Source of the DNA: a virus
Length of the DNA: 58,177 nucleotides
Virus record (IMG/VR): IMGVR_UViG_3300033987_000092
Span: 1 to 58,177 of that record
Reading direction: 5' to 3' (one strand)
The position numbers and the translations under genes were made by a program. Of this stretch, positions 24,539-58,177 are shown in pieces. How positions within the stretch are numbered: position 1 is the stretch's first letter; each line of letters opens with the position of its first letter. The notes under the pieces are model-generated. The model saw only the letters and a program-made list of their open reading frames with translations, did no database searches and was not told the DNA's origin.

Positions 24539-25918
24539 ATGTATGGGATGATCGTACTACTTGCCTATTTTCTATTGATGATAGGCGCAACAGTAATTTT
24601 GACAAAAAGAGAGTGCAGCATTGAAGGGTTTTATGTCGGCAACAGGAACATGGGAACTGTAAGCTCCGCAATGAGTATAGCAGCAACATGGATATGGGCG
24701 CCGGCATTATTTGTGTCGGCAGAGAAAGCATATGTGAACGGGATACCGGGACTATTTTGGTTTTTAATACCTAATATAGCCTGCTTATTAATATTTATCC
24801 CGTTCGCAAAGAAAATCCGGAAGGTGATGCCAAGAGGAATTACCTTATCCGGATTTATGGAGGAGAGATACAACTCCACAAAAGTAAAGAAAGTCTATTT
24901 GTTTCAGCTTGCAAGCTTAACAATACTGTCTACAGGTGTACAGCTGCTTGCAGGTGGAAAAATCCTGAGCAATATTACAAACCTACCATTCAGTATAATT
25001 ACCATCATACTGGCTGTAATAGCTTATTCATACTCGCAGTTTTCCGGTATAAAGGCTTCAGTAATAACGGATGCGATTCAAATGGTTCTTATACTGGCAG
25101 CATGTCTGATATTTGTACCTTGGGCAATCAATATGGATGATGGAATAACTCATCTGATAAAAGGATTGTCCGGAGTATCGGGACAGTATACAGGATTATT
25201 CAACGCCAAAGGTATTGAGATATTCTTTGGTTTTGGCTTGCCTACTGCAATAGGTTTGATAGCTGGACCATTCGGGGACCAATGCTTTTGGCAAAGGGCT
25301 TTTTCGATTAAAGAAAGCAAAATCGGGAAGGCGTTTTTTATAGGCACATTATTATTTGCAGTTGTTCCACTTTCTATGGGAATACTCGGTTTTATTGCGG
25401 CCGGCTCAGGATTTATTGCAGCTGACAAAGGGGTAGTCAACTTCGAATTGATTACACATCTGTTCCCTGAATGGGTTATGCTGCCGTTCCTGTTCATGGT
25501 TATATCCGGGTTAATTTCTACTGTAGACAGCAACCTTTGCGCTGCAGCTTCCCTTACAACAGACTTTGTTAAAGATGAGAGCCTAAAAGTTTCAAAAGGT
25601 GCTATGATACTGCTACTTGCCTTTGGTATAGGTATAGCAAATATCCCAGGATTAAGCATTACTCATCTATTTCTGATTTACGGGACTGTAAGAGCATCTA
25701 CGCTTTTACCGACTGTAATGACACTGAAAAACATTAAACTTTCAGCAAAAGGAGTTTATACAGGAGTAATAACTGCATTGCTTCTGGGGCTTCCTGTGTT
25801 TGCCTACGGCACTATTTATAACCTGTCACTATATAAAACCATTGGGAGTTTAACAACGGTGCTGACAGCGGGAATAATTGCCATCTTGATGGCTAAACGG
25901 GAGGTGTACAAAGCATGA
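24539..25918 (+). CDS. sodium:solute symporter (SSS family)
   Basis: A 459-aa membrane protein with about 12-13 hydrophobic helices. It has the SSS-family features GFYVGNRNMGTVSSAMSIAATWIWAPAL (helix 1-2 region), FSGIKASVITDAIQMVLI and GLISTVDSNLCAAASLTTDF. It is not a phage structural protein. It starts at 24539 after AAAGGAGG and overlaps the PAPS-reductase-like gene by 4 bases, so it belongs to the same cassette. The family imports small organic solutes with sodium. The substrate cannot be read from the sequence. Confidence 0.88.
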   Translation: MYGMIVLLAYFLLMIGATVILTKRECSIEGFYVGNRNMGTVSSAMSIAATWIWAPALFVSAEKAYVNGIPGLFWFLIPNIACLLIFIPFAKKIRKVMPRGITLSGFMEERYNSTKVKKVYLFQLASLTILSTGVQLLAGGKILSNITNLPFSIITIILAVIAYSYSQFSGIKASVITDAIQMVLILAACLIFVPWAINMDDGITHLIKGLSGVSGQYTGLFNAKGIEIFFGFGLPTAIGLIAGPFGDQCFWQRAFSIKESKIGKAFFIGTLLFAVVPLSMGILGFIAAGSGFIAADKGVVNFELITHLFPEWVMLPFLFMVISGLISTVDSNLCAAASLTTDFVKDESLKVSKGAMILLLAFGIGIANIPGLSITHLFLIYGTVRASTLLPTVMTLKNIKLSAKGVYTGVITALLLGLPVFAYGTIYNLSLYKTIGSLTTVLTAGIIAILMAKREVYKA

Positions 25919-26703
25919 AAACGGTTCTTAGCAAAAAACAAAGTATAAGTAATGAAGACTGGATCCAGGCCATGAGTCATATTGAAGAATATGTGACAAA
26001 GGAAGAGCTGGATCTTCTGACAGCCATTACCGTAGATGAAATAAAAAAAACCGTTGCCGGCAAAAAGGCAGCCTATGCATGGAGCGCAGGAAAGGATAGC
26101 TTAGTCCTCGGTCATATATGCGAAAAGGCAGGAATTAAGGATTGCATGCTTGGTATATGTAACCTTGAATATCCTGCTTTTTTAGATTGGATAGAAAAGA
26201 ACAAACCGGATAAGCTTGAAATTATCAACACAGGACAAGATCTGGACTGGTTAGCCAAGCATCAGGATATGTTATTCCCTCAGGACAGCTCAAAGGCCGC
26301 AAGGTGGTTTTCAATCGTGCAGCATGCAGCGCAAAGGAAGTATTACAAAGAGCATGGGCTTGATATACTCATCCTCGGAAGGCGCAGAGCTGACGGAAAT
26401 TATGTGGGCAGAGGCGGTAATATTTACATTGATGGGAAAGGGGTAACCAGGTACAGTCCTTTAGCAAACTGGAAGCATGAGTGCATACTTGCATATATCC
26501 ATTATCACAAATTGCCTGTTCCGCCTATATACAATTGGCCTAACGGTTATAAATGCGGCACTCATCCCTGGCCTGCAAGACAATGGACCAAAGATGTAAT
26601 GCATGGATGGGAAGAGATATACACAATCGATCCAAGTATTGTGGATAAAGCTGCTGAAAAAATTGAGAGTGCCAGAAGATTTAAGGAGGGGATGGGCAAA
26701 TGA
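25915..26703 (+). CDS. PAPS-reductase-like ATP pyrophosphatase, first copy
   Basis: A 262-aa protein with an ATP-binding PP-loop in a variant form, WSAGKDSLVLGH (S57-A-G-K-D-S62, normally SGGKDS), and later ILGRRRADG and RYSPLANWKHECILAYI, the family features for substrate orientation. Such enzymes adenylate a substrate in sulfur transfer or nucleotide modification; PAPS reductase, QueC and DndC share this fold. The reductase's own C-terminal redox cysteine is not obvious. It forms a coupled pair with the ParB-like gene (overlap ATGA). Confidence 0.85.
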   Translation: MKTVLSKKQSISNEDWIQAMSHIEEYVTKEELDLLTAITVDEIKKTVAGKKAAYAWSAGKDSLVLGHICEKAGIKDCMLGICNLEYPAFLDWIEKNKPDKLEIINTGQDLDWLAKHQDMLFPQDSSKAARWFSIVQHAAQRKYYKEHGLDILILGRRRADGNYVGRGGNIYIDGKGVTRYSPLANWKHECILAYIHYHKLPVPPIYNWPNGYKCGTHPWPARQWTKDVMHGWEEIYTIDPSIVDKAAEKIESARRFKEGMGK

Positions 26704-27305
26704 AAATAACAAAGATGAACATTGAGGACCTTCGTACCCCTGAGCGGAATATACGTATTCATACAGAAAAACAGATTGAGGAATTTGTAAGAAGTATTAA
26801 AATGTTTGGACAGATCCGGCCAGTAGTTATTGATGAGAACAATACGATACTGGCGGGAAATGGCTTGGTTATGGCACTGAAAAAGGCAGGACTAAAACAG
26901 GTTGATGTTTACCAGATGGATGGGCTGACAGAGAACCAGAAGAAAAAACTTATGATTGCGGATAATAAAATATTCAGCTTGGGGATTGAAAACCTTGATA
27001 CACTAAATGCTTTTTTAGAAGAGCTCGGAAACGATTTGGATATTCCCGGCTTTGATGAGGAAATCTTAAAATCAATGGTAGCGGAGGCAGAGGAAGTAAC
27101 AGAGAAGCTTTCTCAATACGGTACCCTTGATGAAAAAGAGATTGAAAGCATAAGGAGTAATTCAGCTAAAAAAGAAGCTCTTATTGAAAATGCCGGCAAC
27201 ACGGACAATAATTCTATATCAGATATACAGGAGGATGAGGTAGAAACGGCAGATATAAAAAGGTATGTTATCTGTCCAAAGTGTGGTGAGCAGATTTGGC
27301 TATAA
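26700..27305 (+). CDS. ParB-like protein, first copy
   Basis: A 201-aa protein with an N-terminal ParB/Srx-fold domain (MNIEDLRTPERNIRIHTEKQIEEFVRSIKMFGQIRPVVID, then ILAGNGLVMALKKAGL), a helical middle and a C-terminal zinc half-ribbon (CPKCGEQIWL). The ParB fold binds nucleotides (CTP in ParB; kinase-like in others). It is coupled with the PAPS-reductase-like gene before it and overlaps the second such gene. Pairs of this type (IbrA/IbrB-like) are known from phages, with unclear function. Confidence 0.83.
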   Translation: MKITKMNIEDLRTPERNIRIHTEKQIEEFVRSIKMFGQIRPVVIDENNTILAGNGLVMALKKAGLKQVDVYQMDGLTENQKKKLMIADNKIFSLGIENLDTLNAFLEELGNDLDIPGFDEEILKSMVAEAEEVTEKLSQYGTLDEKEIESIRSNSAKKEALIENAGNTDNNSISDIQEDEVETADIKRYVICPKCGEQIWL

Positions 27306-28450
27306 AAAGATGTGAAGCCAGCATTAACGTAGTAAAGGCAGCCGAAATCCGGATTAAAAATGTATTCGGAAATGGGCTGCCTGTTTATATGTCATTCTCC
27401 GGAGGGAAAGACAGCCTGTGCATGGGACAACTGGTGCTTAACCTGATCCAGCAGGGGCAGATAGATCCAAAGCAGCTGACCGTACAGTATATAGATGAGG
27501 AAGCTATATTCCCCTGCATTGAAAAAACAGTGATGAACTGGAGAAAGAAGTTTATGCTCGTGGGAGCCAAGTTTGAATGGTTCTGCTTAGAGGTAAAACA
27601 TTTCAACTGCTTTAATGAACTGTCCAATGATGAAACCTTTATATGCTGGGATAGTGAAAAGCAGGATGTATGGGTAAGGCAGCCACCTTCTTTTGCCATT
27701 AGAAGCCACCCGCTATTATTCCCCAGAAAAGACGCATACCAAGACTTCCTGCCGCGTGTATGCTCTGATGGCATTACAATAACCGGTATCAGGACAGCAG
27801 AATCAGTGCAAAGACTTCAAAACATTGCATCCATGACAAAAGCGGGCAGAAACATTACAAACAAGAAGCAGATATTCCCGATTTATGACTGGACCAATAA
27901 TGATGTGTGGCTATACCTTAAAGAGCAGCAGGTAGATATCCCGGACATTTACCTTTACCTATGGCAATCAGGAACACCGAAAGGACAATTACGGGTATCA
28001 CAGTTCTTTTCTGTAGATACTGCAAAAAGCCTGGTTAAGATGAATGAGTATTACCCGGACCTCATGGAAAGGGTTATACGCCGGGAGCCGAATGCATACC
28101 TTGCAGCTTTATATTGGGATAGTGAAATGTTTGGCCGGAGAACAAAAAAGAGGAAGCAGCTGGAGAAGGATGAGAAAACCAGGGATTATAAAGCAGAGCT
28201 TCTTAAGCTTTTTGGCAACATGGAAGAGTATTTTACCACAAAGCACAAACTGTATGTTGCAACCAGGTATCGCAACTTCTTTCTGCAGGTTCACACCATA
28301 GTCAATCAAAATGACTGCCGGGAGATATATGAAGGCTTAATATCAGGGGATCCCAAATTGCGTACATTCAGAGCACTTTATCAGCGTATTTTCGGTAGAT
28401 ACATTACCGAAGCAAAGAAAGCAGAGAAGGGAGGAATGGCTGTTGATTAA
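27296..28450 (+). CDS. PAPS-reductase-like protein, second copy (IbrA/DUF3440-like)
   Basis: A 384-aa protein with a perfect PP-loop FSGGKDSLCMGQ (S35-G-G-K-D-S40), and later GIRTAESVQRL and FPIYDWTNNDVWLYL, the substrate-side patterns of the family. The C-terminal 120 residues form an added helical domain typical of the IbrA group. TTG at 27296 overlaps the preceding gene by 10 bases. It differs enough from the first copy to be a paralogue, not a recent duplication. Substrate unknown. Confidence 0.85.
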   Translation: MAIKRCEASINVVKAAEIRIKNVFGNGLPVYMSFSGGKDSLCMGQLVLNLIQQGQIDPKQLTVQYIDEEAIFPCIEKTVMNWRKKFMLVGAKFEWFCLEVKHFNCFNELSNDETFICWDSEKQDVWVRQPPSFAIRSHPLLFPRKDAYQDFLPRVCSDGITITGIRTAESVQRLQNIASMTKAGRNITNKKQIFPIYDWTNNDVWLYLKEQQVDIPDIYLYLWQSGTPKGQLRVSQFFSVDTAKSLVKMNEYYPDLMERVIRREPNAYLAALYWDSEMFGRRTKKRKQLEKDEKTRDYKAELLKLFGNMEEYFTTKHKLYVATRYRNFFLQVHTIVNQNDCREIYEGLISGDPKLRTFRALYQRIFGRYITEAKKAEKGGMAVD

Positions 28451-38338: not shown

Positions 38339-38527
38339 GTGGCTAAAAATGAGGCTGAAAAAGCAGCAAAATTTACAGTTGAGCGCTTGCGTATGGCTTG
38401 TACTTCACTGTTTGGAGTGAGCACAAGCACTTATGATGGCGCCACACATGGACTTAAAGGTGAATACACCGTAGAGGAAATGAAATCTATCATTCAGAAA
38501 TGGATGAAAAAGGAGGTTAAAGCGTAA
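38339..38527 (+). CDS. small protein between terminator and sheath genes
   Basis: A 62-aa protein starting with GTG at 38339 after AAGGAGGCG. It contains FTVERLRMACTSLFGVSTSTYDGATHGLKGEYTVEEMKSIIQKWMKKE, a pattern conserved in PBSX-like tail operons before the sheath gene. It ends one base into the sheath start. The role is unknown, probably tail assembly. Confidence 0.75.
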   Translation: MAKNEAEKAAKFTVERLRMACTSLFGVSTSTYDGATHGLKGEYTVEEMKSIIQKWMKKEVKA

Positions 38528-39849
38528 TGGCTGGAGGAACTTTTGACCCTTTGGTTGGAAAGGTTAGACCGGGAACCTATATCAACTTCCGGTCAATCAA
38601 GCAAGAAAGTAAACCCTTAAGTGAAAGAGGAATTGTCCTTATTCCGCTGCTCAATGCCGACTGGGGTCCACACAAGGAGTTTATTACGATTACTCAGGAT
38701 GCACCTGATGCGAATTTCGCAAAGTTGGGTCATTCTGTGTATGACATCAATGACAATATGCTCTTAATCAGAGAAGCTCTGAAAAGGGCAAGAATGGTAA
38801 TTGTGTACAGGCCTACTGACGGAGTGAAAGCTACAGCTACAGCTGCTCCACTGACCGTTACAGCAAAATACTCTGGTGAGAGAGGAAATGATCTTAGGTT
38901 TGTGATTGCTACAAACCCTGTATCGGGAAAAGATTTTGTGCTCTATCTTGGAACGGAAAAGTTGTTTGAGGTTAATGGGATCACCAATGTTGAAGATTTA
39001 CCTGCAAATGATTGGGTGACATTCTCCGGGACAGGAGCACTTGCGACAACGGCAGGAACAAACCTTGCCGGAGGTAGTAACGGAGTTCAGGTAAATGGTG
39101 ATATTACTGATTTTCTTGATGATTCCGAAATTGTGAAGTGGAATAGCCTTGCATTCCCTATTACTGATGCAACCCTACAGGCTGCTCTAAAAACCAAAAT
39201 AAAGTATTTCAGAGAGTCGGTAGGAAAGTATGTAAAGGCCGTTGCACCTGATTTCCCTGCAGACTATGAAGGAATTATCAATGTTACCAATTCGGTTAAG
39301 CTTGCAGACGGTACAGAATTGACTAAGGCCCAAGCGACTGCATATGTAGCTGCACTGGATGCAGCCGCACCGAATAATAAGTCAAATACCTATGAGAGAT
39401 ATGACGGAGCTGTGGATGTTATTGGCAAGAAGAATCATGAGCAGGCAGTTGCTGCTATTAACAACGGTGAATTCTTCTTCTCCATGAATGAGGACAAGGT
39501 TGTTGTTGAGTACGATATCAACTCCCTTGTAACCATAGTTGCTCCTAAGGGTAGCGATTACAAGAAGAATCGTGTCCTAAGGGTATTTGACACCTTCGCA
39601 GAGGCTCTGCAGAACAATTTCCCGCCGAATAAGTATGATAACAGTCCGGATGGATGGGACATCATGGAGGGAGTCGGTAAAATCCTGCTTCAGGAATTTG
39701 CAGATAACCATGCAATAAAGAATGTTGATATGGATAACGACTTCCTTGTGGACAGAGTTAAGTCTACCGGCGACAAGACTTTCTTTAAAGTCGGCCTTGA
39801 ACCTGTAGACAGTGCTGAGAAGTTGTATTTTGATATAAAAACAAGGTAA
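38527..39849 (+). CDS. tail sheath protein (XkdK-like)
   Basis: A 440-aa contractile sheath protein. It starts GGTFDPLVGKVRPGTYINFRS, has LSERGIVLIPLLNADWGPHKEFITI and the C-terminal assembly domain (RVLRVFDTFAEALQNNFPPNKYDNSPDGWDIMEGVGKILLQEFADNHAIKN). Together with the tube gene this shows the phage is a myovirus with a contractile tail. GGAGG precedes the ATG at 38527, which overlaps the previous stop. Confidence 0.94.
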   Translation: MAGGTFDPLVGKVRPGTYINFRSIKQESKPLSERGIVLIPLLNADWGPHKEFITITQDAPDANFAKLGHSVYDINDNMLLIREALKRARMVIVYRPTDGVKATATAAPLTVTAKYSGERGNDLRFVIATNPVSGKDFVLYLGTEKLFEVNGITNVEDLPANDWVTFSGTGALATTAGTNLAGGSNGVQVNGDITDFLDDSEIVKWNSLAFPITDATLQAALKTKIKYFRESVGKYVKAVAPDFPADYEGIINVTNSVKLADGTELTKAQATAYVAALDAAAPNNKSNTYERYDGAVDVIGKKNHEQAVAAINNGEFFFSMNEDKVVVEYDINSLVTIVAPKGSDYKKNRVLRVFDTFAEALQNNFPPNKYDNSPDGWDIMEGVGKILLQEFADNHAIKNVDMDNDFLVDRVKSTGDKTFFKVGLEPVDSAEKLYFDIKTR

Positions 39850-46364: not shown

Positions 46365-47429
46365 ATGTTTGAGGATAGAACCTATGAAAATATACTTGCA
46401 GAAATGTTGGCTATGGCACCTGTCGGCATAGATACAAGGCAAGGCAGTATATTCTATGATGCAGTAGCTCCACAGGCTTTTAAGCTGTCGAAGTTTTATC
46501 AGGACCTAAATATGGTGTTTGAACTTATCTTTATTGACACAGCTACAAATGAATACCTGGATAAAAAGGCAAGTGAACATGGTGTTACGAGGCTTGCTGC
46601 TAAGGCCTGTAAAAGGCAATTCTCATATGTTGGCACAACACCTTCCTCAGGAGAGCGGTTTTTTGCCGGTGGCATTTATTTTGTACTTAAGCTGGATGAG
46701 AACGGTGAGCTGTTTGTAGAAGCTGAAGAACCCGGGGAAAATGCAAACAATATTCCCTCAGGCGAAAGGCTGGTTCCGCTCAACAATATCCTTGGCCTTG
46801 ATGAAGCTACCCTTGGAGATATCATAGAGCCTGGTACAGAAAAGGAATCTGATGAAGACCTTAGGCGAAGAATACGGGAGAAGATTGCCGGGCCTGCAGA
46901 GAATGGAAACAAGCAGCATTATAAAACATGGTGTGAAGAGGTTGCCGGTGTTGGCAGGGCAAGGATATTTCCTTTATGGAATGGCCCGAATACTGTCAAG
47001 GGAGTTTTAATTGACACAGAGGGACAGCCTGCATCTGGAGCAGTTGTAGCAAATGTCCAGGAATATATAGACCCGGGAGGACTTGGACTTGGTGAAGGAG
47101 TGGCCAATCTCGGAGCAAAATTCACAGCTGCAGCTGCCAACCCCATAGTAATTGACATATCGTATACAGCGGTGCTGAAAGCAGGCTCAACCGCTCAGAT
47201 GGCGCAGGAACAGACACAGACAGCTTTGACTGATTATCTAAAGGATATTGCGTTAAATACTCCTGAAGGTGAGGATATAGTAATTAGGCTTACCTCTATT
47301 GGTGCTATCATCAATGGGCTGGATGCAATTCTGGACTACTCTAACCTGACTTTAAACGGCGGTACTGCCAATATACCTATTGATATCGAATCAGTTGCTG
47401 TCCTGGGGGTGGTGACGGTGAATGTATAA
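46365..47429 (+). CDS. baseplate protein J-like (XkdT-like)
   Basis: A 354-aa baseplate wedge protein with MFEDRTYENILAEMLAMAPVGIDTRQGSIFYDAVAPQAFKLSKFY, then GENANNIPSGERLVPL, EKESDEDLRRRIREKIAGPAENGNKQHYKTWCEEVAGVGRARIFPLWNGPNTVKGVLID. The family is gpJ/XkdT. It overlaps the next gene by 8 bases. Very clear match. Confidence 0.93.
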   Translation: MFEDRTYENILAEMLAMAPVGIDTRQGSIFYDAVAPQAFKLSKFYQDLNMVFELIFIDTATNEYLDKKASEHGVTRLAAKACKRQFSYVGTTPSSGERFFAGGIYFVLKLDENGELFVEAEEPGENANNIPSGERLVPLNNILGLDEATLGDIIEPGTEKESDEDLRRRIREKIAGPAENGNKQHYKTWCEEVAGVGRARIFPLWNGPNTVKGVLIDTEGQPASGAVVANVQEYIDPGGLGLGEGVANLGAKFTAAAANPIVIDISYTAVLKAGSTAQMAQEQTQTALTDYLKDIALNTPEGEDIVIRLTSIGAIINGLDAILDYSNLTLNGGTANIPIDIESVAVLGVVTVNV

Positions 47430-48183
47430 CAACAATTATGAAGAACTGAAGACCTTCCTTCCAGTGTTTTATGATAATGTCCTGGAGATGCAGGCTATAT
47501 TGCAAGTGAGCGGAGATAAACTTGACCAGGCGGAGAACGGACTTAACCAGGTACTTCTGAATAACTTCATTATGGATGCCGATGAACCGACAATAGCACG
47601 GATTGAGCGGTTTTTATATCTGCAGGTTGACAAGACAAGGTCATTGGATGAGAGGAAACGTTTAGTAGCCTCTTTTTTTATTGGCTTTGGAAAGATGAGT
47701 GCAAGCAAAATAAAAGAAATGGTGTACGCATTTACTAATGCAACTTCTGATGTGTTTTTCAATGATAGTACTATTTCCATTGAAATTGAAAGAGGTACTT
47801 CACCGAGCTTATACCTGATTGACCTTGACACCATTCTTTCCAGGAGAATACCGGCACACCTTCCGTTTGTATTGGTTATCAAGTACACCATAGAAACTAC
47901 AGTAAGTGTAAAGAAAAAGACATATATGTTTGAATACACACTTACAAACATGCTGAAGTGCGGAACTCATCCTGATAGTGCTACGCTCGGTAAGGTGGAA
48001 AATGCAGAAGTTAATGTATTGGCAAATGTTAATGAGTATATGTTTGATTACAAACTATGCGGTACTACGCCGGACATTGCCACTCTTGGACAAATATCCG
48101 GCAGTGATATAAATACTGGACTTGAATTGGAACAGTACACATTTAATTATGTGCTGTGCGGCACAAGACGGTGTGGTGAATAA
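47422..48183 (+). CDS. DUF2313-type tail protein (XkdU-like) with three C-terminal repeats
   Basis: A 253-aa protein. Residues 1-150 are the DUF2313/YmfQ pattern (FLPVFYDNVLEMQAILQVSGDKLDQAENGLNQVLLNNFIMDADEPTIARIERFL...). The last 90 residues contain three imperfect repeats: YMFEYTLTNMLKCGTHPDSATLG, YMFDYKLCGTTPDIATLG and YTFNYVLCGTRRCGE. Each has a conserved aromatic-x-aromatic start and a CGT. The repeats may be a fibre-attachment scaffold with possible disulfide or metal links. Confidence 0.88.
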   Translation: MYNNNYEELKTFLPVFYDNVLEMQAILQVSGDKLDQAENGLNQVLLNNFIMDADEPTIARIERFLYLQVDKTRSLDERKRLVASFFIGFGKMSASKIKEMVYAFTNATSDVFFNDSTISIEIERGTSPSLYLIDLDTILSRRIPAHLPFVLVIKYTIETTVSVKKKTYMFEYTLTNMLKCGTHPDSATLGKVENAEVNVLANVNEYMFDYKLCGTTPDIATLGQISGSDINTGLELEQYTFNYVLCGTRRCGE

Positions 48184-48200
48184 AAAAAGGGGTGATGTAT

Positions 48201-48509
48201 TTGGCAAACTTTTGGACTGCAAATTATCTACAAAAAAGGAGGAATGAATGGTTAAAGAGCTTAGTTAAGGCTCAGTACCGTATTGGTAGCACCTTTTATG
48301 ATGCTGTGATTACGGAAAAAAAGATTGAAGGTGATACCCTGATTGTTTACATGGTGATTGATCATACTGTCAGCGGTACAGCGACAATCAACTATGTAAG
48401 GCTTATTGATGAGGGCGGGGAGGTCGCCGGTGAAAGAGCGGAAAACATCACAAAGAGCGGTACGCAGGGTGTACTCATGAAATTCGAATTTCCTTTGAAG
48501 GAGGTGTAA
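48201..48509 (+). CDS. tail protein, likely fibre-associated
   Basis: A 102-aa protein in the position of small fibre-attachment proteins. TTG at 48201 is chosen because AAGGGGTG lies 6 bases upstream. ATG at 48195 is an alternative. It is beta-rich (RIGSTFYDAVITEKKIEGDTLIVYMVIDHTVSGTATINYVRLID). No precise family recognised. Confidence 0.7.
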   Translation: MANFWTANYLQKRRNEWLKSLVKAQYRIGSTFYDAVITEKKIEGDTLIVYMVIDHTVSGTATINYVRLIDEGGEVAGERAENITKSGTQGVLMKFEFPLKEV

Positions 48510-48515
48510 CAGCGT

Positions 48516-48962
48516 ATGAAACCATATAACCGTACCACATGGAAGGACCATGTTGTGGATCCTGGAACCGGTGCAGTCATCCAGCAGGGTACCCCACAGT
48601 CGGCTACAAACTTCAACAATATGGAAGAAGGCATATTTGCCGGAGATGCTGGAATGTCGGTATTATCACAGCAGGTTCTGCAGCATAAACGTGTTCTGTC
48701 AGATCTGGAGGGGGAAACGGGGCAGGCGTCAATGACAAACAGCCAGTCGTACCCTTTTAATAATTCCAGCGTGACAGTTAACCTGCAGAAATCAAGGGAT
48801 ACATTGAACTACAGGGTATTGGTTGAAGTCGTTTCTTCTAATGGCCCAGTAGGAGAGGTTGTTGTATATGACAAGCAGCTCAACGGCTTCAAGATTAAGT
48901 TTACAGGCAGCGCAACTGCTGTGACTGTAAAATATTACGTTACAGGAGGTATGTATCAATGA
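48516..48962 (+). CDS. tail fibre-type protein
   Basis: A 148-aa protein. The first 40 residues (PYNRTTWKDHVVDPGTGAVIQQGTPQSATNFNNMEEGIFAGD) are a common N-terminus of phage tail appendage proteins that docks on the baseplate. The rest is a beta-rich domain. It overlaps the next gene by 4 bases. It probably forms part of the platform for the DGR-diversified protein. Confidence 0.8.
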   Translation: MKPYNRTTWKDHVVDPGTGAVIQQGTPQSATNFNNMEEGIFAGDAGMSVLSQQVLQHKRVLSDLEGETGQASMTNSQSYPFNNSSVTVNLQKSRDTLNYRVLVEVVSSNGPVGEVVVYDKQLNGFKIKFTGSATAVTVKYYVTGGMYQ

Positions 48963-49294
48963 TAGTCATTGAAAAGAATGTAGGACCAAAGATTGATTAC
49001 ACCGTTACAGGTACAAAAATCAACTTTGCTGGTGAAATCACATTGGATTTGAGCAAGTATGAGCGTGATTTTGCAGTGCATCTTGACATATGCCAGGATA
49101 AGTTTGGCTTTTTTACTATGGGGCTTTCAGACAGATATGTTGCTCAGATAGATATTCCGGAAAGGCAGTACAATATGGAGGAAAATGGAACTGATGAAGA
49201 GGGAAATCCAGTTATGCAGCCTGTTCCGATTCCTTTTAACATGGATAATGTAACGCTCACACTTTGGAGAATGGAGGGGTTGAATAATGCCTAA
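48959..49294 (+). CDS. tail protein upstream of the DGR target
   Basis: A 111-aa protein, beta-rich at the start (VGPKIDYTVTGTKINFAGEITLDLSKYERDFAVHLDI), with a segment RYVAQIDIPERQYNMEEN. It overlaps the target gene by 8 bases, so the two are translated together. It may be the adapter between the baseplate and the variable protein. No family recognised with confidence. Confidence 0.7.
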   Translation: MIVIEKNVGPKIDYTVTGTKINFAGEITLDLSKYERDFAVHLDICQDKFGFFTMGLSDRYVAQIDIPERQYNMEENGTDEEGNPVMQPVPIPFNMDNVTLTLWRMEGLNNA

Positions 49295-50390
49295 TTTTGA
49301 TGATTTGAAACTTACTGTTGAGGCTCTTTCAGGCGGCAAAAATACTGTGCTGCTTGATGACCTTGGGATGCCTTCTATCATGGTGAAAATCCCTAAATTT
49401 AAAATATCTGATGTTATCACAGGCGGACCTGATACAACGCATCCTGCCTTTATTGTTAATGGAGTTGAAAAAGATGCAATATACATTAGCAAATATCAGA
49501 ATATAGTTATGAATGGCAGAGCCTACAGTCTCCCTCATAAAGACCCTGCAGTCTATACGAACTTTGATCAGGCTAAATCTTATTGTGAGGCAAAAGGCTT
49601 AGGGTGGCATCTTATGACCAATGCAGAATGGGCAGCTATCGCTTTGTGGTGTAAGAAGAATGGATTCATGCCTCGTGGGAATAACAACTATGGCGCAGAT
49701 ACATCTGCTGCTCATGAAAAGGGTGTAATGACATGGATGTATGATGCAACGAGGATAGGGCGTGTTGCAACTGGTTCCGGACCTGCGTCATGGGCGCACG
49801 ACAATACCAATGACGGGATATTTGATATGAACGGCAATGTGTGGGAATGGGTTGGAGGATTGAGATTGAAAAACGGAGAAATCCAAATCATTCCGAATAA
49901 TGATGCAGCTCAGGCTATTAACCAGAGCGACACAAGTACTTACTGGAAAGCAATGCTTCAGGATGGTAGTCTTGTCGATCTAGGTACGGCAAACACACTC
50001 AAAATAGATAATACTACAGCCGGAAGTTCTGCTCAGGATGGTAACGATGTTGGTGGAGATCCTATACTGAATACAACAAGAGATAATCCGATGTATACCG
50101 GCGGTGATGTTAATGATAATTACAGGTATAGCGCTTGTAGCTTTGAAACGTTTGCAGCAAAATCAGGGGTAACCGCTCCTACATTGTTAAAGGCTTTGGG
50201 GCTTTTCCCTATTGATGCAAGCCATGGTGGAGATGTTTTATATGTTAGAAACTATGGAGAGAGACTCCCGCTGCGCGGCGGCAATTTCGCTGATGGTGGT
50301 TCCGCCGGGGTTTTCGCCCTCTTTTTGATCAATGATCGTACTTCTAGCGACAACTCTGTCGGGTTCCGCTCCGCTTTTGTAAATCTGTAA
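49287..50390 (+). CDS. DGR target protein: tail receptor-binding protein with C-type lectin fold
   Basis: A 367-aa protein. The N-terminal ~45 residues link it to the tail. The remainder is a formylglycine-generating-enzyme-like C-type lectin fold (YCEAKGLGWHLMTNAEWAAIALWCKKNG, DGIFDMNGNVWEWVGGLRL). The end (from L329: LRGGNFADGGSAGVFAL...VGFRSAF) is encoded by the variable repeat at 50269-50375. Eight residues differ from those specified by the template (335, 336, 346, 348, 350, 353, 355, 357), and all changes come from adenines. It is the most likely receptor-binding element of the virion. It overlaps the previous gene. Confidence 0.93.
   Translation: MPNFDDLKLTVEALSGGKNTVLLDDLGMPSIMVKIPKFKISDVITGGPDTTHPAFIVNGVEKDAIYISKYQNIVMNGRAYSLPHKDPAVYTNFDQAKSYCEAKGLGWHLMTNAEWAAIALWCKKNGFMPRGNNNYGADTSAAHEKGVMTWMYDATRIGRVATGSGPASWAHDNTNDGIFDMNGNVWEWVGGLRLKNGEIQIIPNNDAAQAINQSDTSTYWKAMLQDGSLVDLGTANTLKIDNTTAGSSAQDGNDVGGDPILNTTRDNPMYTGGDVNDNYRYSACSFETFAAKSGVTAPTLLKALGLFPIDASHGGDVLYVRNYGERLPLRGGNFADGGSAGVFALFLINDRTSSDNSVGFRSAFVNL
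50269..50375 (+). repeat. DGR variable repeat (VR)
   Basis: A 107-bp segment at the 3' end of the target gene that aligns without gaps to 50896-51002. There are 12 differences, all at adenines of the template (A to T 7, A to G 3, A to C 2). The last 18 bases (GTCGGGTTCCGCTCCGCT) are identical in both and GC-rich, the expected place of the IMH element where mutagenic homing starts. The stop codon follows at 50388-50390. Confidence 0.95.
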
Positions 50391-50409
50391 TCTGGTGCAC
50401 TGTAATCTG

Positions 50410-50435
50410 TTTCTCCCGCCGATAGGCGGGAGAAA
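50410..50435. promoter_or_regulatory. DGR target-site hairpin (cruciform) downstream of VR
   Basis: TTTCTCCCGCC (50410-50420) and GGCGGGAGAAA (50425-50435) form a perfect 11-bp inverted repeat with the 4-base loop GATA. Target-site hairpins of DGRs have this form, with a 4-base loop of the GRNA type, and raise homing efficiency. The 10-base string CTGTAATCTG is also repeated at 50385-50394 and 50400-50409, between VR and the hairpin. The trailing AAATTTTT run means it might also act as a terminator. Confidence 0.7.
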
Positions 50436-50531
50436 AATTTTTAAATCTAAAATAACGCATTGGGTTATAATTTAACAATTATCCAAAAATGAAATATTTC
50501 CTGCTAAAATTTATGAGATGGGGGGAGATGC

Positions 50532-50870
50532 GTGGGTGAAGAATTAAAAATACTTCAAAAAGTATACGATATGATAAAGTATGGATATCAAGCTCTTGCA
50601 CAATTTCCCAAAAGTGAAAAGTTTGCATTAGCAGCAGATATAAAAAGATGCATGCATTTGATCCTTGAAAGGGTTATTGAAGCGAATAAAAAATACTATA
50701 AAAAAACAACTCTTCAGGAATTAGATGTAGAAATTATGAAACTCAAAGCATATCTGCGGTTATCTCAGGAGTTAGGTTTTTTGCCATTTAAAAAGTATGA
50801 GATATGGTCAGAAAAAGTAGTAGAGATAGGTAAGATGCTTGGAGGATGGATTAAGTCAACAAATAAATAA
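50532..50870 (+). CDS. avd: DGR accessory variability determinant (Avd)
   Basis: A 112-aa, highly basic, all-helical protein with the Avd pattern: LQKVYDMIKYGYQALAQFPKSEKFALAADIKRCMHLILERVIEANKKYY, then LQELDVEIMKLKAYLRLSQELGFLPFKKYEIWSEKVVEIGKMLGGW. Avd forms a five-fold barrel of four-helix bundles that binds the reverse transcriptase and the template RNA and is needed for homing. GTG at 50532 follows GGGGGAG. Its position between VR and TR fits known DGR orders. Confidence 0.93.
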   Translation: MGEELKILQKVYDMIKYGYQALAQFPKSEKFALAADIKRCMHLILERVIEANKKYYKKTTLQELDVEIMKLKAYLRLSQELGFLPFKKYEIWSEKVVEIGKMLGGWIKSTNK

Positions 50871-50895
50871 TAAAATATTGGGAACAGGATGTCAG

Positions 50896-51002
50896 CGCTG
50901 CGCGGCGGCAATTTCACTAATGGTGGTTCCGCCGGGGTTTTCGCCCTCAATTTGAACAATGAACGAACTAATAGCAACAACAATGTCGGGTTCCGCTCCG
51001 CT
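50896..51002 (+). repeat. DGR template repeat (TR)
   Basis: The 107-bp invariant template, with 24 adenines, 12 of which are changed in VR. Nearly all lie in AAT/AAC codons (N in the template frame), which allow many replacements but never a TAA/TAG/TGA-type stop from AAC or AAT. It lies in the 298-base gap between avd and the reverse transcriptase gene. An open frame at 50889-51107 is a by-product of its similarity to the target gene, not a gene. Confidence 0.95.
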
Positions 51003-51168
51003 CTACTCTCGCAGTCAGATGTAGTATACTCATGGGTATACTTCCAGTACGGAGAGATTAAAGGATCCTGTTTCCATGCCGAAAGGCAAAAAACTGAAAT
51101 GTTATGAATGCCGAAAGTAGCCATAGTGCAAAATCCGCAACGCATAACATTTTTTTACGGGAGGAAAT
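51003..51168 (+). ncRNA. 3' part of the DGR template RNA (spacer region)
   Basis: The 166 bases between TR and the reverse transcriptase start are the position of the structured spacer that, with Avd and RT, primes cDNA synthesis. Visible structure includes GTATAC-TCATGG-GTATAC, a GCC-GAAA-GGC tetraloop stem, and ATGTTATG (51099-51106) pairing with CATAACAT (51143-51150), followed by a run of seven T. The boundaries of the RNA are not determined. Confidence 0.6.
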
Positions 51169-52281
51169 ATGAAATACATAAAGAATCTCTACGATGATAT
51201 ATGTACCTTTGAAAACCTATATTTAGCATATAAAAACGCAAGAAAAAATAAGAGGTTTAGGGATGAAGTACTGGAATTTTCATCAAATGTGGAAGAATAT
51301 TTAATGGATATACGCAAAGAACTTATCGAACAGACTTATAAAGTTGGTAAATACCGAGAATTCTTTGTATATGAGCCTAAAAAAAGGCTGATAATGGCTT
51401 TGCCTTTTAAAGACCGGGTTGTTCAATGGGCAATATATCAAAAACTTAATCCATACTTTACAAAAGGTTATATATCTGACAGTTTTGCTTGTATAGAAGG
51501 CAGAGGAGCTCATCAAGCTGTCCAAAGATTGCATTACTGGCTAAGGCAGATAGGTAGAAAACCAGGTAAATATTATTATCTAAAGCTTGATATTTCAAAA
51601 TATTATTACAGAATTGACCATGACGTTTTAGTAGAAATTCTCTCAAGAAAGATAAAAGACACCAAATTGATGAAGCTTCTTGAGGGAATTATCCGGTGTG
51701 AAGATCATAGCTTTGGCCTCCCTCTCGATGCAAGCCTTGAGGAAACAGATGTTAGGATAAACAATAAAGGAATGCCTATCGGTAACTTAACCTCACAGAT
51801 GTTTGCCAATATCTATTTAAATGAACTGGACCAGTATGTAAAAAGAAAACTCAGGATTCATTATTATGTTCGATACATGGATGATGTAATTATTCTGCAT
51901 GAGAGCAAACAGGAACTACACAAAATAAAGAAAGTGATTGAGACTTTCCTTGATGAGAAGCTGAAGCTTAATCTCAACAACAAAACTGCCATAAGACCGG
52001 TTACCCTGGGGATTGAATTCGTCGGATACAAGGTATGGAATACCCATATAAAGCTGCGAAAAAGCACAGCTCTTAAGATGAAACGAAGGTTAAAACATCT
52101 TAAGAAACAGTATGAACGGGGAGAAATTGAGATTGAGGATGTAAGAGCAACAATGGCAAGTTATAATGGACTGATGAAGCATTGCAATAGCTTCAGGCTC
52201 CGAAGTAAACTGTATGACACATTGGTTTTTACAAGAAAAAGTGAACCAGATAATGATGATGAGAATGGTGGATGTGAATAA
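51169..52281 (+). CDS. DGR reverse transcriptase
   Basis: A 370-aa reverse transcriptase of the DGR group. The catalytic centre is YMDD at residues 236-239 (YYVRYMDDVIIL). Motif 4 reads IGNLTSQ (204-210), where the SQ ending separates DGR enzymes from group II intron and retron ones. Other blocks: FKDRVVQWAIYQKLNPYF, YYLKLDISKYYYRID, LNNKTAIRPVTLGIEFVGYK. There is no nuclease or maturase domain. GGGAGGAAAT precedes the ATG. With Avd it makes adenine-mutagenised cDNA from the TR RNA. Confidence 0.96.
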   Translation: MKYIKNLYDDICTFENLYLAYKNARKNKRFRDEVLEFSSNVEEYLMDIRKELIEQTYKVGKYREFFVYEPKKRLIMALPFKDRVVQWAIYQKLNPYFTKGYISDSFACIEGRGAHQAVQRLHYWLRQIGRKPGKYYYLKLDISKYYYRIDHDVLVEILSRKIKDTKLMKLLEGIIRCEDHSFGLPLDASLEETDVRINNKGMPIGNLTSQMFANIYLNELDQYVKRKLRIHYYVRYMDDVIILHESKQELHKIKKVIETFLDEKLKLNLNNKTAIRPVTLGIEFVGYKVWNTHIKLRKSTALKMKRRLKHLKKQYERGEIEIEDVRATMASYNGLMKHCNSFRLRSKLYDTLVFTRKSEPDNDDENGGCE

Positions 52282-52321
52282 CGACATCCACTTTTTTATG
52301 TAAAAGAAAGAGGGTGGTATA

Positions 52322-52627
52322 TTGGACAACAGCACAATTTTTGCCTTGATCGGGGCAGCAGGCACTGTATGCGCTATTATATTCGGGTATCTTGGCTATC
52401 AGAAAGGGTTAAGACAAGACAGTTACAAAGAGGGGAGTGATGATAGTGAACTAAAGGCTGATACCCAGTATATCAAACGCAGAATTGATGATGTCCTTCT
52501 GGAGCAAAAGGAAACAAACAAGTCAATCAATGCTCTATCTGAAAGAGTAACCAGGCTGGAAGAATCGCTTAAGTCAGCTTGGAAAAGGATTGAGTCCATA
52601 GAAAAAGGTGTAAAGAAGGAGGAATGA
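52322..52627 (+). CDS. XhlA-like holin-associated protein
   Basis: A 101-aa protein with one N-terminal membrane helix (TIFALIGAAGTVCAIIFGYLGY, residues 4-25) and a long coiled coil (KADTQYIKRRIDDVLLEQKETNKSINALSERVTRLEESLKSAWKRIESIE). This is the XhlA/hemolysin type found in the lysis cassettes of PBSX-like phages. It starts with TTG at 52322 after AGAGGGTGG and stands before the endolysin. Confidence 0.83.
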   Translation: MDNSTIFALIGAAGTVCAIIFGYLGYQKGLRQDSYKEGSDDSELKADTQYIKRRIDDVLLEQKETNKSINALSERVTRLEESLKSAWKRIESIEKGVKKEE

Positions 52628-52633
52628 TAAAAC

Positions 52634-54076
52634 ATGAAAAAGGTAACTATTGACCCGGGTCATGCACCTGGTAATGCCAATAGAGGTCCTACCGGTTATT
52701 ATGAATACGCCGGCATGTGGAAACTTTCAAATTACCTCAAAAATGCACTTACTCGGTGCGGCATTGAAGCTGTACTCACAAGGACAGAGAATGAAGACCC
52801 CGAACTTGATGTGAGAGGGAAAAGAGCAAAAGGAAGCGATGTCTTTATCAGTGAGCACTCTAACGCAGCTAACGGAAATGCCCGTGGCGTAGAGTGCTTT
52901 TATTCTGTCCGTATACCTGGAGATAAGGCATGGGCTGGAAAGATATCTGCAGCTGGCTCAAAACTTATGGGTAATAATGACCGGGGAGCAAAGACAAGGG
53001 AGTCAGAGACAACTGAAGGGTATGACTATTACGGTGTTATCCGTTCTGCTGTAGCTACAGGTGTTCCTCATGTCTTTTTGGTTGAGAATGGATTTCACGA
53101 CAATGCATCGGATGAAGCATTTTTGAAGGCAGATGCCAACCTTGAAAGTTTAGCAGAGTCTCAAGCAGAGGTCCTGTGTGAGCTGCTTGGTGTAAAGTAT
53201 ATTGCAAAGGGTGAAGCAGTCTCACAGCCAAGCATAGCCTTGTACAGGGTAAGAAAATCATGGAGTGATGCAAAATCACAGGTAGGAGCATACAGAGTTC
53301 TTGATAATGCCAAGGCAGAGTGTGACAAGCATCCTGGATACTCTGTATATGATGAAGAAGGAAACGCCGTTTATGGTGCGGCAATCCCTAAGCCAGAACC
53401 CCCAAAGCAGGAAGAACCTGCAGGTACTCCAATTATATATACTGCCAGGGCGACAGTTGACCAAGCAAAAGCATGGGCCAAAAATAAAGGCACCACTGAA
53501 TTATTCTTAAGTCTTGCCGATATTTTCTGGAAGCTGGCACCTATTATCGGCGTGGATCCTGTCGTAGCATATTGCCAGTCAGCAAAGGAAACCGGGTATG
53601 GCAATTTCAGAGGTGTACTGGATGAAAGCTTCAGGAATCCGTGTGGTATGAAGAAAAAAGAGGGCGGCGGTGACTATGACAAGGAAGCTCACCAAAGGTT
53701 TGCATCATGGGAGGAAGGTATTCAAGCTCAGCTGGATCACCTGGCACTATATGCCGGTGCTTTCGGGTATCCGAAAGCGAATACACCTGACCCAAGGCAT
53801 TTTAGTTTCATCAAAGGTACTGCACCGACTGTTGAATTGCTTGGCGGCAAGTGGGCTCCATCGGCCACCTATGGCAATGACATTGTAAAGATGATGAATG
53901 AGCTTATCGCTACTCCGGAACCGGCTGCTCCAGAAACTGAGCACTGGGCAGAGAAGTATTATCGCTTTTTAACAGAAGAAAAAGGCATGGTTATCCATGA
54001 GAAGAGGTTTGATGATACGGTAACCAGGGGCGAAATATTCTGCCTCATGGCCCGCTTGTTGGGTTATAAAGAATAA
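52634..54076 (+). CDS. endolysin: N-acetylmuramoyl-L-alanine amidase plus glucosaminidase
   Basis: A 480-aa lysin with two enzymes. Residues 1-190 are an amidase_3 zinc enzyme: H10, E24, H75 and E151 (TIDPGHAPG, SEHSNA, VENGFHDN). About 203-245 is a SPOR-like wall-binding part. About 262-405 is a glucosaminidase/lysozyme-like domain (WKLAPIIGVDPVVAYCQSAKETGYGNFRGV...NPCGMKKKEGGGDYDKEAHQRFASWEEGIQAQLDHLALYAG). The end (HWAEKYYRFLTEEKGMVIHEKRFDDTVTRGEIFCLMARLLG) is SLH-like. GAGGAATGATAAAAC precedes the ATG. Confidence 0.92.
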   Translation: MKKVTIDPGHAPGNANRGPTGYYEYAGMWKLSNYLKNALTRCGIEAVLTRTENEDPELDVRGKRAKGSDVFISEHSNAANGNARGVECFYSVRIPGDKAWAGKISAAGSKLMGNNDRGAKTRESETTEGYDYYGVIRSAVATGVPHVFLVENGFHDNASDEAFLKADANLESLAESQAEVLCELLGVKYIAKGEAVSQPSIALYRVRKSWSDAKSQVGAYRVLDNAKAECDKHPGYSVYDEEGNAVYGAAIPKPEPPKQEEPAGTPIIYTARATVDQAKAWAKNKGTTELFLSLADIFWKLAPIIGVDPVVAYCQSAKETGYGNFRGVLDESFRNPCGMKKKEGGGDYDKEAHQRFASWEEGIQAQLDHLALYAGAFGYPKANTPDPRHFSFIKGTAPTVELLGGKWAPSATYGNDIVKMMNELIATPEPAAPETEHWAEKYYRFLTEEKGMVIHEKRFDDTVTRGEIFCLMARLLGYKE

Positions 54077-54102
54077 AAATTAAATGAAAGGATGATGAAA
54101 CA

Positions 54103-54522
54103 ATGAATAACATTTCTTTGGTTTCTCTCATTATTGGACTTGCCGTTGGAGTGATAGCTGCCAGCGGTATTTTATTGCCTGCATTGAAGAAAAAAGGTAT
54201 AGATGCAGGAACCGTATTGGAACAGGCTTCAAACACCATTGGTGTGATTAACAACACCTTTGATTCCTTAAAAGCCATCTTGCCTGATAATCCGGCAGTC
54301 AATATGATTGATAAGATTCTGGACTGGGCCTCTATAGGAGTTGACCAGGCCGAACAGCTCTATTTAGTTGGTAAGATAAAAGGTGATGAAAGAAAGGCTG
54401 CTGCAATAGACTTTATCCATGAGTCACTTAATTTAGCCGGCATAGAAATCACACCATCTATCGAAAAGATAATTGATGGAGCTGTAGAAGCTTCAGTGCT
54501 TGCTTTAGGACATAAACAATAA
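54103..54522 (+). CDS. putative holin
   Basis: A 139-aa protein with one N-terminal membrane helix (residues 4-27, SLVSLIIGLAVGVIAASGILLPAL) and a helical, partly amphipathic remainder. This matches LLH-type holins with a single helix and a long cytoplasmic part. It is the last gene of the late operon, after the endolysin, and is followed by a strong terminator. Holin is the best call by position and shape. Confidence 0.7.
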   Translation: MNNISLVSLIIGLAVGVIAASGILLPALKKKGIDAGTVLEQASNTIGVINNTFDSLKAILPDNPAVNMIDKILDWASIGVDQAEQLYLVGKIKGDERKAAAIDFIHESLNLAGIEITPSIEKIIDGAVEASVLALGHKQ

Positions 54523-54532
54523 AGATATATTC

Positions 54533-54590
54533 AAAAAAATCCCCCATTCTGAGTATGTTATGTCTCAGGGTGGGGGATTTTTTATTTTTC
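54533..54590 (+). terminator. strong terminator of the late operon
   Basis: AAAAAAATCCCCCA...CTGAG (54533-54553) pairs with CTCAGGGTGGGGGATTTTTT (54564 on), giving a long stem followed by TTTTTTATTTTT. It ends the whole late transcription unit. Confidence 0.92.
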
Positions 54591-54682
54591 TGCTCCTTGA
54601 ATAACGGAATACGTGATAATCTAACAAATCGCAGTTTTATGTAACGCTTAGTGTTAAAATATCACGAAAGGAGCAGAGGCGT

Positions 54683-54946
54683 ATGGCGATTAGAATTTTA
54701 CTGTCCAAGAAACTTGGCGAGCTTCGATGGACACAAGCCGATCTTGCACGAAAGACGGGAATACGCCCTACCACAATCAATGAGATGTACCACGAAATCA
54801 TTGAGCGTGTTAACCTTGAACACTTAGACTTGATTTGTGAAGCACTTGATTGTGATCTTTCTGAAATATTGGTGCGTATCCCCAACGAAGTACCCAAACT
54901 GGGTAATCGCTCTCGTGCGGGGGAAACAAAAACTGAAGATGAATGA
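54683..54946 (+). CDS. XRE-family regulator in the cargo region
   Basis: An 87-aa protein with an HTH (RWTQADLARKTGIRPTTINEMYHEIIERVNLEHLDLICEALDCDLSEIL). GAAAGGAGC precedes the ATG. It stands alone after the late terminator, so it is transcribed separately, probably in the lysogen. The basic tail (NRSRAGETKTEDE) is ordinary. It may control the adjacent cargo genes or be a host-type regulator acquired with them. Confidence 0.8.
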   Translation: MAIRILLSKKLGELRWTQADLARKTGIRPTTINEMYHEIIERVNLEHLDLICEALDCDLSEILVRIPNEVPKLGNRSRAGETKTEDE

Positions 54947-54962
54947 AAAGGTGTTGCAGCGC

Positions 54963-55178
54963 CTATTCATCTACCACTGGCGCCTCTCGTGGGGCGCCTT
55001 TCCCTTGCCATAAAAAAGTACCTTCATTGTCAGCCACTCCAAAGTTTATTCCGGGATATTTCTCTGTGAGGCTCTTACCGGTCTGAATAAGGCTCTGGCT
55101 TTCATAGCTTTTTGTTACCTGGAGCCACTTGCCATTTTTGCCTTGCTTCAGTAGGTAGAACTCCTGCAGCTCCGACAT
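54963..55178 (-). CDS. hypothetical cargo protein
   Basis: A 71-aa protein on the minus strand, ATG at 55178 with GGGAGG 8 bases upstream. It is a small beta-rich unit (LQEFYLLKQGKNGKWLQVTKSYESQSLIQTGKSLTEKYPGINFGVADNEGTFLW). No function recognised. Its reverse orientation, opposite to the late operon, marks it as cargo expressed from the prophage. Confidence 0.6.
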   Translation of the reverse strand: MSELQEFYLLKQGKNGKWLQVTKSYESQSLIQTGKSLTEKYPGINFGVADNEGTFLWQGKGAPREAPVVDE

Positions 55179-55283
55179 CCATATCACCTCCCTTCAAGTG
55201 AAGTGGGAGGACCTTTTTATGACTGTTTAAAATGATACCGTTAAACTCAAAATAATTCAATTGTCAACGAACAATCTATGTTA

Positions 55284-55363
55284 AAGGGGCGCCATCTTTT
55301 CCCCTGTAGCGACGGGTGTCCCGCTATCCCCTTTCGGGGATTTCGGCCGGTACCCATCCGGCC
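55284..55363. other. structured non-coding segment with four hairpins
   Basis: Four stems lie in 80 bases: AGGGG...CCCCT (55284-55305), a CGGG-TGT-CCCG stem (about 55313-55323), ATCCCC-TTTC-GGGGAT (55326-55341), and GGCCGG-TACCCAT-CCGGCC (55345-55363). The segment is much more GC-rich than its surroundings and lies in the 211-base gap upstream of the minus-strand gene at 54963-55178. It looks like a structured RNA or a recombination site rather than a promoter. I do not recognise its class. Confidence 0.5.
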
Positions 55364-55389
55364 ATCATCAGGCGGGTTGGTATTTAAAA

Positions 55390-55734
55390 TTATTCTATAT
55401 ACTCAACTTTTGTTGCCAATGTTTTAGAATCTTCATATAGACCGAGTTGAAATACTTTTCCGATATAATATTCGCTTGCTTCAGTCATAGTACCATTAAA
55501 TTTTGTGACTAAATAATCTCCATTTTCAAAATGAACCTTAATAATGATTGGCTTCGGGGATTTCAAATATTCCTCTAGTTTTTTTATACAGTCACGAAAG
55601 CTGTATGCAGACCAGTACCACCCTGTCTTGACATCTATGACATGTTCTATTTCTCCGCTCATTGTTTGCCAGCGTTTAATTTCTCTTTTTTCTCCGTTGC
55701 TTAAAGTAATAATTTCTCTGTATTCCTTTGCCAT
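55390..55734 (-). CDS. hypothetical cargo protein
   Basis: A 114-aa protein on the minus strand. ATG at 55734 has AAAGGGTGG upstream. The first part is beta-rich (KEYREIITLSNGEKREIKRWQTMSGEIEHVIDVKTGWYWSAYSFRDCIKKLEEYL), and the end (SPKPIIIKVHFENGDYLVTKFNGTMTEASEYYIGKVFQLG) is a second beta unit. No function recognised. Confidence 0.6.
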   Translation of the reverse strand: MAKEYREIITLSNGEKREIKRWQTMSGEIEHVIDVKTGWYWSAYSFRDCIKKLEEYLKSPKPIIIKVHFENGDYLVTKFNGTMTEASEYYIGKVFQLGLYEDSKTLATKVEYIE

Positions 55735-57945: not shown

Positions 57946-58017
57946 AAAATCTTTTGAGAATAAAAATACAAACTCATTTTTAATGGAATATAGATAATAT
58001 ATACACAAAAAATCAAG

Positions 58018-58177
58018 GTGAAATATGATAAAGCAACCTTCTATAATAGAATGGGAATTACGCTGATTGTTCAGCTTGCGGTCGGCCTGATTAAAGCCAT
58101 TCCTGAGCTTGTGAAGTCATTGCCTCAGATTGTTGCGGCTATCATTGAAGGCTTGGGTAAAGCGGTCGTTTCGGTAG
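58018..58177 (+). pseudogene. partial tape-measure-like gene fragment beyond the prophage end
   Basis: The frame from GTG 58018 through ATG 58051 to the window end encodes a hydrophobic helical segment (GITLIVQLAVGLIKAIPEL, then VKSLPQIVAAIIEGLGKAV) of the kind found in the C-terminal half of many phage tape-measure proteins. It bears no resemblance to the tape measure of this phage (41048-43903). The similarity begins abruptly at GITL, near the presumed junction. It is open at the window end, so its length is unknown. It may be the 3' part of another prophage's gene interrupted by this one. Confidence 0.6.
58052..58058. other. possible right attachment-site core (attR)
   Basis: TGGGAAT at 58052-58058 matches the first seven bases of the window, and the foreign tape-measure-like frame starts in it (ATG-GGA-ATT). 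It is the best candidate for the integration core. The core could be longer because the left end is cut. Confidence 0.35.

Follow-up and report, generated by a model that had tools for sequence, protein, structure and literature searches.

The window, by which we mean the whole 58,177-nucleotide stretch of the virus record IMGVR_UViG_3300033987_000092, carries what we believe, with a probability of about 95%, to be a complete and recently active diversity-generating retroelement (DGR), belonging to a temperate phage of Clostridia with a contractile tail. Replacement of a variable repeat (VR) with sequence copied from a template repeat (TR) alters a lectin-fold protein that is most likely the part of the tail that binds the receptor. 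Three metagenomic contigs nearly identical to the window differ from it almost exclusively in the VR, and there at sites where the TR has adenine, and the TR stays constant. With more than 30,000 DGRs already catalogued and found to be widely active (PMC8144416), the cassette itself is ordinary, a canonical DGR. The useful addition is the link it offers between the DGR template RNA and an RNA family annotated as RT-14.

Anatomy of the cassette

The VR (50269..50375, plus strand) and the TR (50896..51002, plus strand) align over 107 bases without gaps. Their 12 differences all lie at adenines of the TR (seven A>T, three A>G and two A>C), none lies at the 83 non-adenine template bases, and the hypergeometric chance that 12 of 12 differences would fall on the 24 TR adenines is approximately 1e-9. 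Every number that the original prediction gave for this match checked on realignment. Homology between the repeats stops sharply at either end of the VR, which lies in frame at the 3’ end of the target gene; the GC-rich 3’ end of the VR is presumed to be the IMH, a placement taken from Bordetella phage BPP-1. The predicted spread of the 24 adenines over 14 codons was also confirmed: nine are AAY, two ACT, one AGC, one GAA and one CGA. No adenine substitution in the TR can reach a stop codon, and 13 of the 14 codons are able to alter the protein, so that the codon list (15^9 x 4^3 x 5) gives a reachable repertoire of about 1.2e13 proteins.

The cassette is ordered target, hairpin, avd, TR and reverse transcriptase (RT). 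Its target gene (49287..50390, plus strand) encodes a protein of 367 aa, assigned to the FGE-type C-type-lectin DGR variable proteins. Residues 5-365 match residues 11-384 of TaqVP (5vf4_A) with 273 bits, making the two proteins full-length homologues that include the VR region. TaqVP, from Thermus aquaticus, has an FGE-type C-type-lectin fold with the variable region at its extreme C-terminus (PMC6328139). This homology, together with matches to Pfam FGE-sulfatase and phrog_2889, supports the predicted C-type lectin fold of the target.

The accessory variability determinant, avd (50532..50870, plus strand), has a GTG start; its product scores above the curated thresholds for both bAvd (Pfam) and DivGenRetAVD (NCBIfam NF033474) and matches phrog_3206, and a sequence search against solved structures returned no match for it. 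Adjoining the TR, the RT gene (51169..52281, plus strand, 370 aa) matches RVT_1 and phrog_1423 and encodes the motifs IGNLTSQ (51778-51798), of the form IGxxxSQ, and YMDD (51874-51885). The best solved structure for the RT is 8ub7 (1.2e-50), which we take to be the DGR RT of BPP-1, far above the RTs of group II introns (2e-25). Among the NCBIfam models no DGR RT model matched, and the group II intron model fell under its cut-off.

Between the target and avd lies a hairpin with an 11-bp stem and a GATA loop, a form of GRNA (50410..50435, plus strand), starting at base 35 after the VR. Phage DGRs have been described with a GRNA-loop hairpin downstream of the VR, with stems of 7-10 bp at distances of 4-34 bp (PMC3240598); the hairpin in the window is at or just past these ranges. 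Close relatives have hairpins with different stems at bases 34-43 after the VR and with loops of GATA, GAAA or GGTA. The retention of GRNA loops on different stems argues for a target-recognition hairpin, as we presume this one to be. A simple scan of more distant relatives found no such hairpin. After the hairpin comes AATTTTT, a T run that none of the other listed loci has; the hairpin may serve in addition as a terminator. Each of these parts had been foreseen in the original prediction, which named the hairpin after the target, an Avd and a DGR-type RT with YMDD and IGNLTSQ; the profile and structure matches bear these out, and the coordinates confirm the order in which it placed them.

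Natural variation in the variable repeat

Contigs related to the window are metagenome assemblies, in which single variants could be consensus artefacts, and two of them allow a direct comparison across the cassette. L003 differs from the window at 17 positions over 7781 bp, of which 16 lie in the VR at TR-adenine sites and one lies elsewhere; L004, compared over window positions 46605-55408, has 12 differences, all in the VR at TR-adenine sites. In both contigs the TR is identical to that of the window and every VR substitution lies at a TR adenine. The probability that differences would be confined in this way to the adenine columns of the VR is about 1e-39 for L003 and 1e-31 for L004. Different VRs amid unchanged flanks mean that VR replacement is more recent than nearly all other substitutions.

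Variation is also visible within one metagenome. L117 and L003 come from the same metagenome and both end within the VR, where their 40-bp overlap disagrees only at TR-adenine sites, so that one sample holds at least two VRs; L117 does not cover the TR, the constancy of which is seen in L003 and L004. Sites mutated in the VRs of the window, L003 and L004 overlap, pair by pair, in 6, 7 and 7 cases against 4.5, 7.5 and 5.6 expected, about as often as independent copying from the TR predicts.

The same pattern recurs further afield. In a relative of 72% identity, two contigs (L118 and L119) disagree at 16 positions out of 4678; the VR holds 15 of these, 13 at TR adenines, and the TR is identical in the two. 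Most relatives yielded adenine-biased VR/TR pairs on automated pairing, and across 33 pairs of the family, not all independent since a few loci are near-duplicates, TR adenines account for 417 of 425 differences (155 A>T, 154 A>G and 108 A>C). Whereas the original prediction had set against itself VRs identical in all isolates, or changes at non-adenines, the contigs related to the window hold VRs that differ at TR-adenine sites, and the TR is identical wherever it is covered. These comparisons show that adenine-specific replacement of the VR has taken place recently and in nature. They provide a clean natural demonstration of a hypervariable patch amid thousands of unchanged bases, both within one metagenome and between metagenomes.

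The phage and its host

Upstream of the cassette the window encodes a tail sheath (38527-39849, phrog_279), a tape measure protein, baseplate J and a protein like Mu gp48; the cassette is followed by genes for a small unknown protein and an endolysin, and an integrase gene lies at 32-1150 on the minus strand. Judged from these genes, the window, itself a virus record, is a temperate contractile-tailed phage. Its closest RT relatives in bacterial genomes are mostly in Clostridia, and one Clostridiales MAG has 98% DNA identity to about 3 kb of its right end, in keeping with the clostridial myophage that had been proposed. Plasmid records gave no match to the window, and among viral contigs only L003 and L004, both already known, contained an exact match to the VR/TR core.

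Three other features of the window deserve mention. Two phosphoadenosine phosphosulfate reductase-like genes lie upstream of the terminase gene (25915-28450). L004 differs from the window at 33 positions between 45716 and 46604, a recombination patch that ends inside the baseplate J gene. At the right end (58013-58177) the window diverges from L037 at 58012 and from L003 at 58056, beyond which L003 has an apparent gene for a RelE-type toxin. A junction, or a join made in assembly, may account for the final 121 bases of the window.

Mechanism and alternative explanations

By analogy with BPP-1, from which we infer the steps of RNA priming and retrohoming, the TR and the RT-14 spacer that follows it would form a single transcript. 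The RT together with Avd would introduce errors at adenines while copying the TR, and the resulting cDNA would take the place of the VR at the 3’ end of the target gene, the site of replacement being marked by the hairpin with its GRNA loop and by the GC-rich end of the VR. In this way a lectin-fold protein whose gene lies beside the baseplate genes would have as many as 13 residues of its binding face replaced.

It could be argued that the repeats arose by ordinary gene duplication and diverged through selection at exposed residues, without reverse transcription, as the variable residues of a lectin fold are exposed and diversifying selection would concentrate there too. Such selection would have had to act on TR adenines only and in one direction (12 of 12 differences here, 417 of 425 in relatives), to leave the TR unchanged and to avoid every non-adenine column of the VR in L003 and L004. 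We regard this explanation as having a negligible chance of being correct, and plain duplication is ruled out by the adenine specificity itself. It is also very improbable that the DGR is decayed or silent and that its repeats record past activity of a cassette no longer working in this phage. The window is a single sequence, and decayed relatives do exist (L039 is without avd), but all genes of the cassette are intact and near-identical contigs hold different VRs amid thousands of otherwise unchanged bases. A working DGR might, with rather greater though still low probability, diversify something other than a host-cell adhesin: a protein that binds mucus, particles or another ligand, or one expressed by the lysogen. 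Against this, the target gene comes immediately downstream of the baseplate genes, with the lysis genes beyond it, in the usual place of receptor-binding proteins, and it is because the target occupies that place that we call it one. The majority of viral DGR targets, moreover, are tail proteins (PMC8144416). A recently active DGR acting on the receptor-binding part of the tail is therefore the reading we prefer; gene position and homology make this role of the target the most likely one and suggest its placement at the tail tip, with receptor binding itself proposed by analogy with BPP-1.

RT-14 as a probable domain of the template RNA

The account of the cassette in the original prediction did not include an RNA element that a covariance model places between the TR and the RT. 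RT-14 RNA (Rfam RF02921) is matched at full length at 51006..51147 on the plus strand, with 80.3 bits against a gathering threshold of 48.1, starting 4 nt after the TR and ahead of the RT; we presume it to be the structured 3’ spacer domain of the DGR template RNA. It is placed alike in L004-L007, L038, L040 and phage BalMu-1. An alignment of 12 RT-14 sequences has 14 of its 24 predicted pairs changed on both sides with pairing kept.

The search for RF02921 covered two sets of genomes, about 400 in each, one drawn from the class and the other from the phylum to which one relative’s genome belongs; 25 matches that lie outside this relative’s genome were examined in their context. An adenine-mutated TR ends -6 to +24 nt from the start of RT-14 in 19 of these 25 Bacillota loci; the other six comprise short contigs, loci in which no VR could be detected, and one locus (L139) that has RT-14 twice. 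A DGR-like RT is nearby in 23 of the 25. Its position varies: at four loci the RT is upstream on the same strand, with the TR and RT-14 after it, and at three it is on the opposite strand. That RT-14 adjoins the TR even in these arrangements indicates that it travels with the TR and is likely to be the 3’ domain of the template RNA. In BPP-1 the 3’ part of the template RNA recruits RT-Avd and primes the cDNA (PMC12875486).

RT-14 might instead have a regulatory function of its own, for instance as a leader that controls expression of the RT, and be no part of the template RNA. In the window it lies just upstream of the RT, where such a leader would be, and its Rfam name reflects only an association with reverse transcriptases. 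The four loci where RT-14 follows the TR with the RT upstream, and the three with the RT on the opposite strand, make this improbable, since they leave the TR as the constant neighbour. We are thus quite confident that RT-14, tied to the TR and not to the RT gene, serves across Bacillota as the spacer, the structured 3’ domain of the DGR template RNA, and that its counterpart, the BPP-1 spacer, belongs to a separate Rfam family.

The BPP-1 spacer matches that separate family, RF03022 (Phage_DGR), which gave no matches in 391 genomes of one relative’s class, a search in which no positive control matched either. The priming adenine of BPP-1 is, we assume, Sp position 56. In the window, spacer position 56 is U and an invariant AAAGG occupies positions 58-62, so that mapping the BPP-1 priming site onto this spacer is suggestive at most.

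The link between RT-14 and the template RNA supplies an RNA-based marker for DGRs, including rearranged ones with the RT elsewhere, and the RT-14 set offers comparative material on RNA recognition by the RT-Avd complex outside Bordetella. At the two-copy locus (L139, 3759-4636), a single DGR has one RT-14 after an adenine-rich TR-like repeat and another after an adenine-poor repeat; the TR may have been duplicated, or overwritten by VR-like sequence.

Relation to known retroelements

The BPP-1 cassette (mtd-avd-TR-brt) shares with the window the order target-avd-TR-RT, adenine-specific transfer from TR to VR, a GRNA-loop hairpin after the VR and a structured spacer of about 140 nt between the TR and the RT. 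They differ in the target, which is Mtd in BPP-1 and a TaqVP-like lectin protein in the window, in the spacer family (RF03022 and RF02921) and in the host, which for the window is in Clostridia. The Thermus aquaticus prophage DGR (TaqVP, 5vf4) resembles the window in its target, homologous over the full length (273 bits), in having the VR at the extreme C-terminus, in its prophage setting and in having avd before the TR (PMC6328139), although its host is of another phylum and its sequence is well diverged.

The closest annotated phage, Bacillus phage BalMu-1, has an RT 59% identical to that of the window and likewise a lectin target, an Avd, an RT-14 spacer and a holin and endolysin downstream; its host is Bacillus alcalophilus, and its DNA identity to the window is 66.9% in the matching part only. 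Faecalibacterium phages such as FP_Lagaffe share with the window a host in Clostridia; they are prophages with documented adenine-specific VR variation, and their DGRs have Mtd-like or other targets (PMC11792537). Unlike the window, some of them have two VRs, and their RT is 47% identical to that of the window.

Among the relatives, Anaerovorax sp. IOR16 has three related prophage DGRs in a single genome, one of which (L039, 6743-9193) is without avd. There the VR and TR have apparently been fused by recombination, and the target, the hybrid repeat, RT-14 and the RT remain; the loss of avd suggests a route of DGR decay, or the locus could be an assembly collapse. In other loci two VRs share a single TR; they are separated by about 6 kb in L042 (7148-14189) and by about 1.7 kb in L028 and L030, and represent a second target gene or a duplicated target. 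At L046 (12634-13035) two Twister-sister ribozyme matches lie on the minus strand some 3.5 kb downstream of the RT gene. Relatives of the RT also occur with adenine-biased repeat pairs in Archaea, on two Methanomethylophilaceae MAG contigs (L065 and L066), where the TR precedes or overlaps the start of the RT and the VR lies about 2.5 kb further on.
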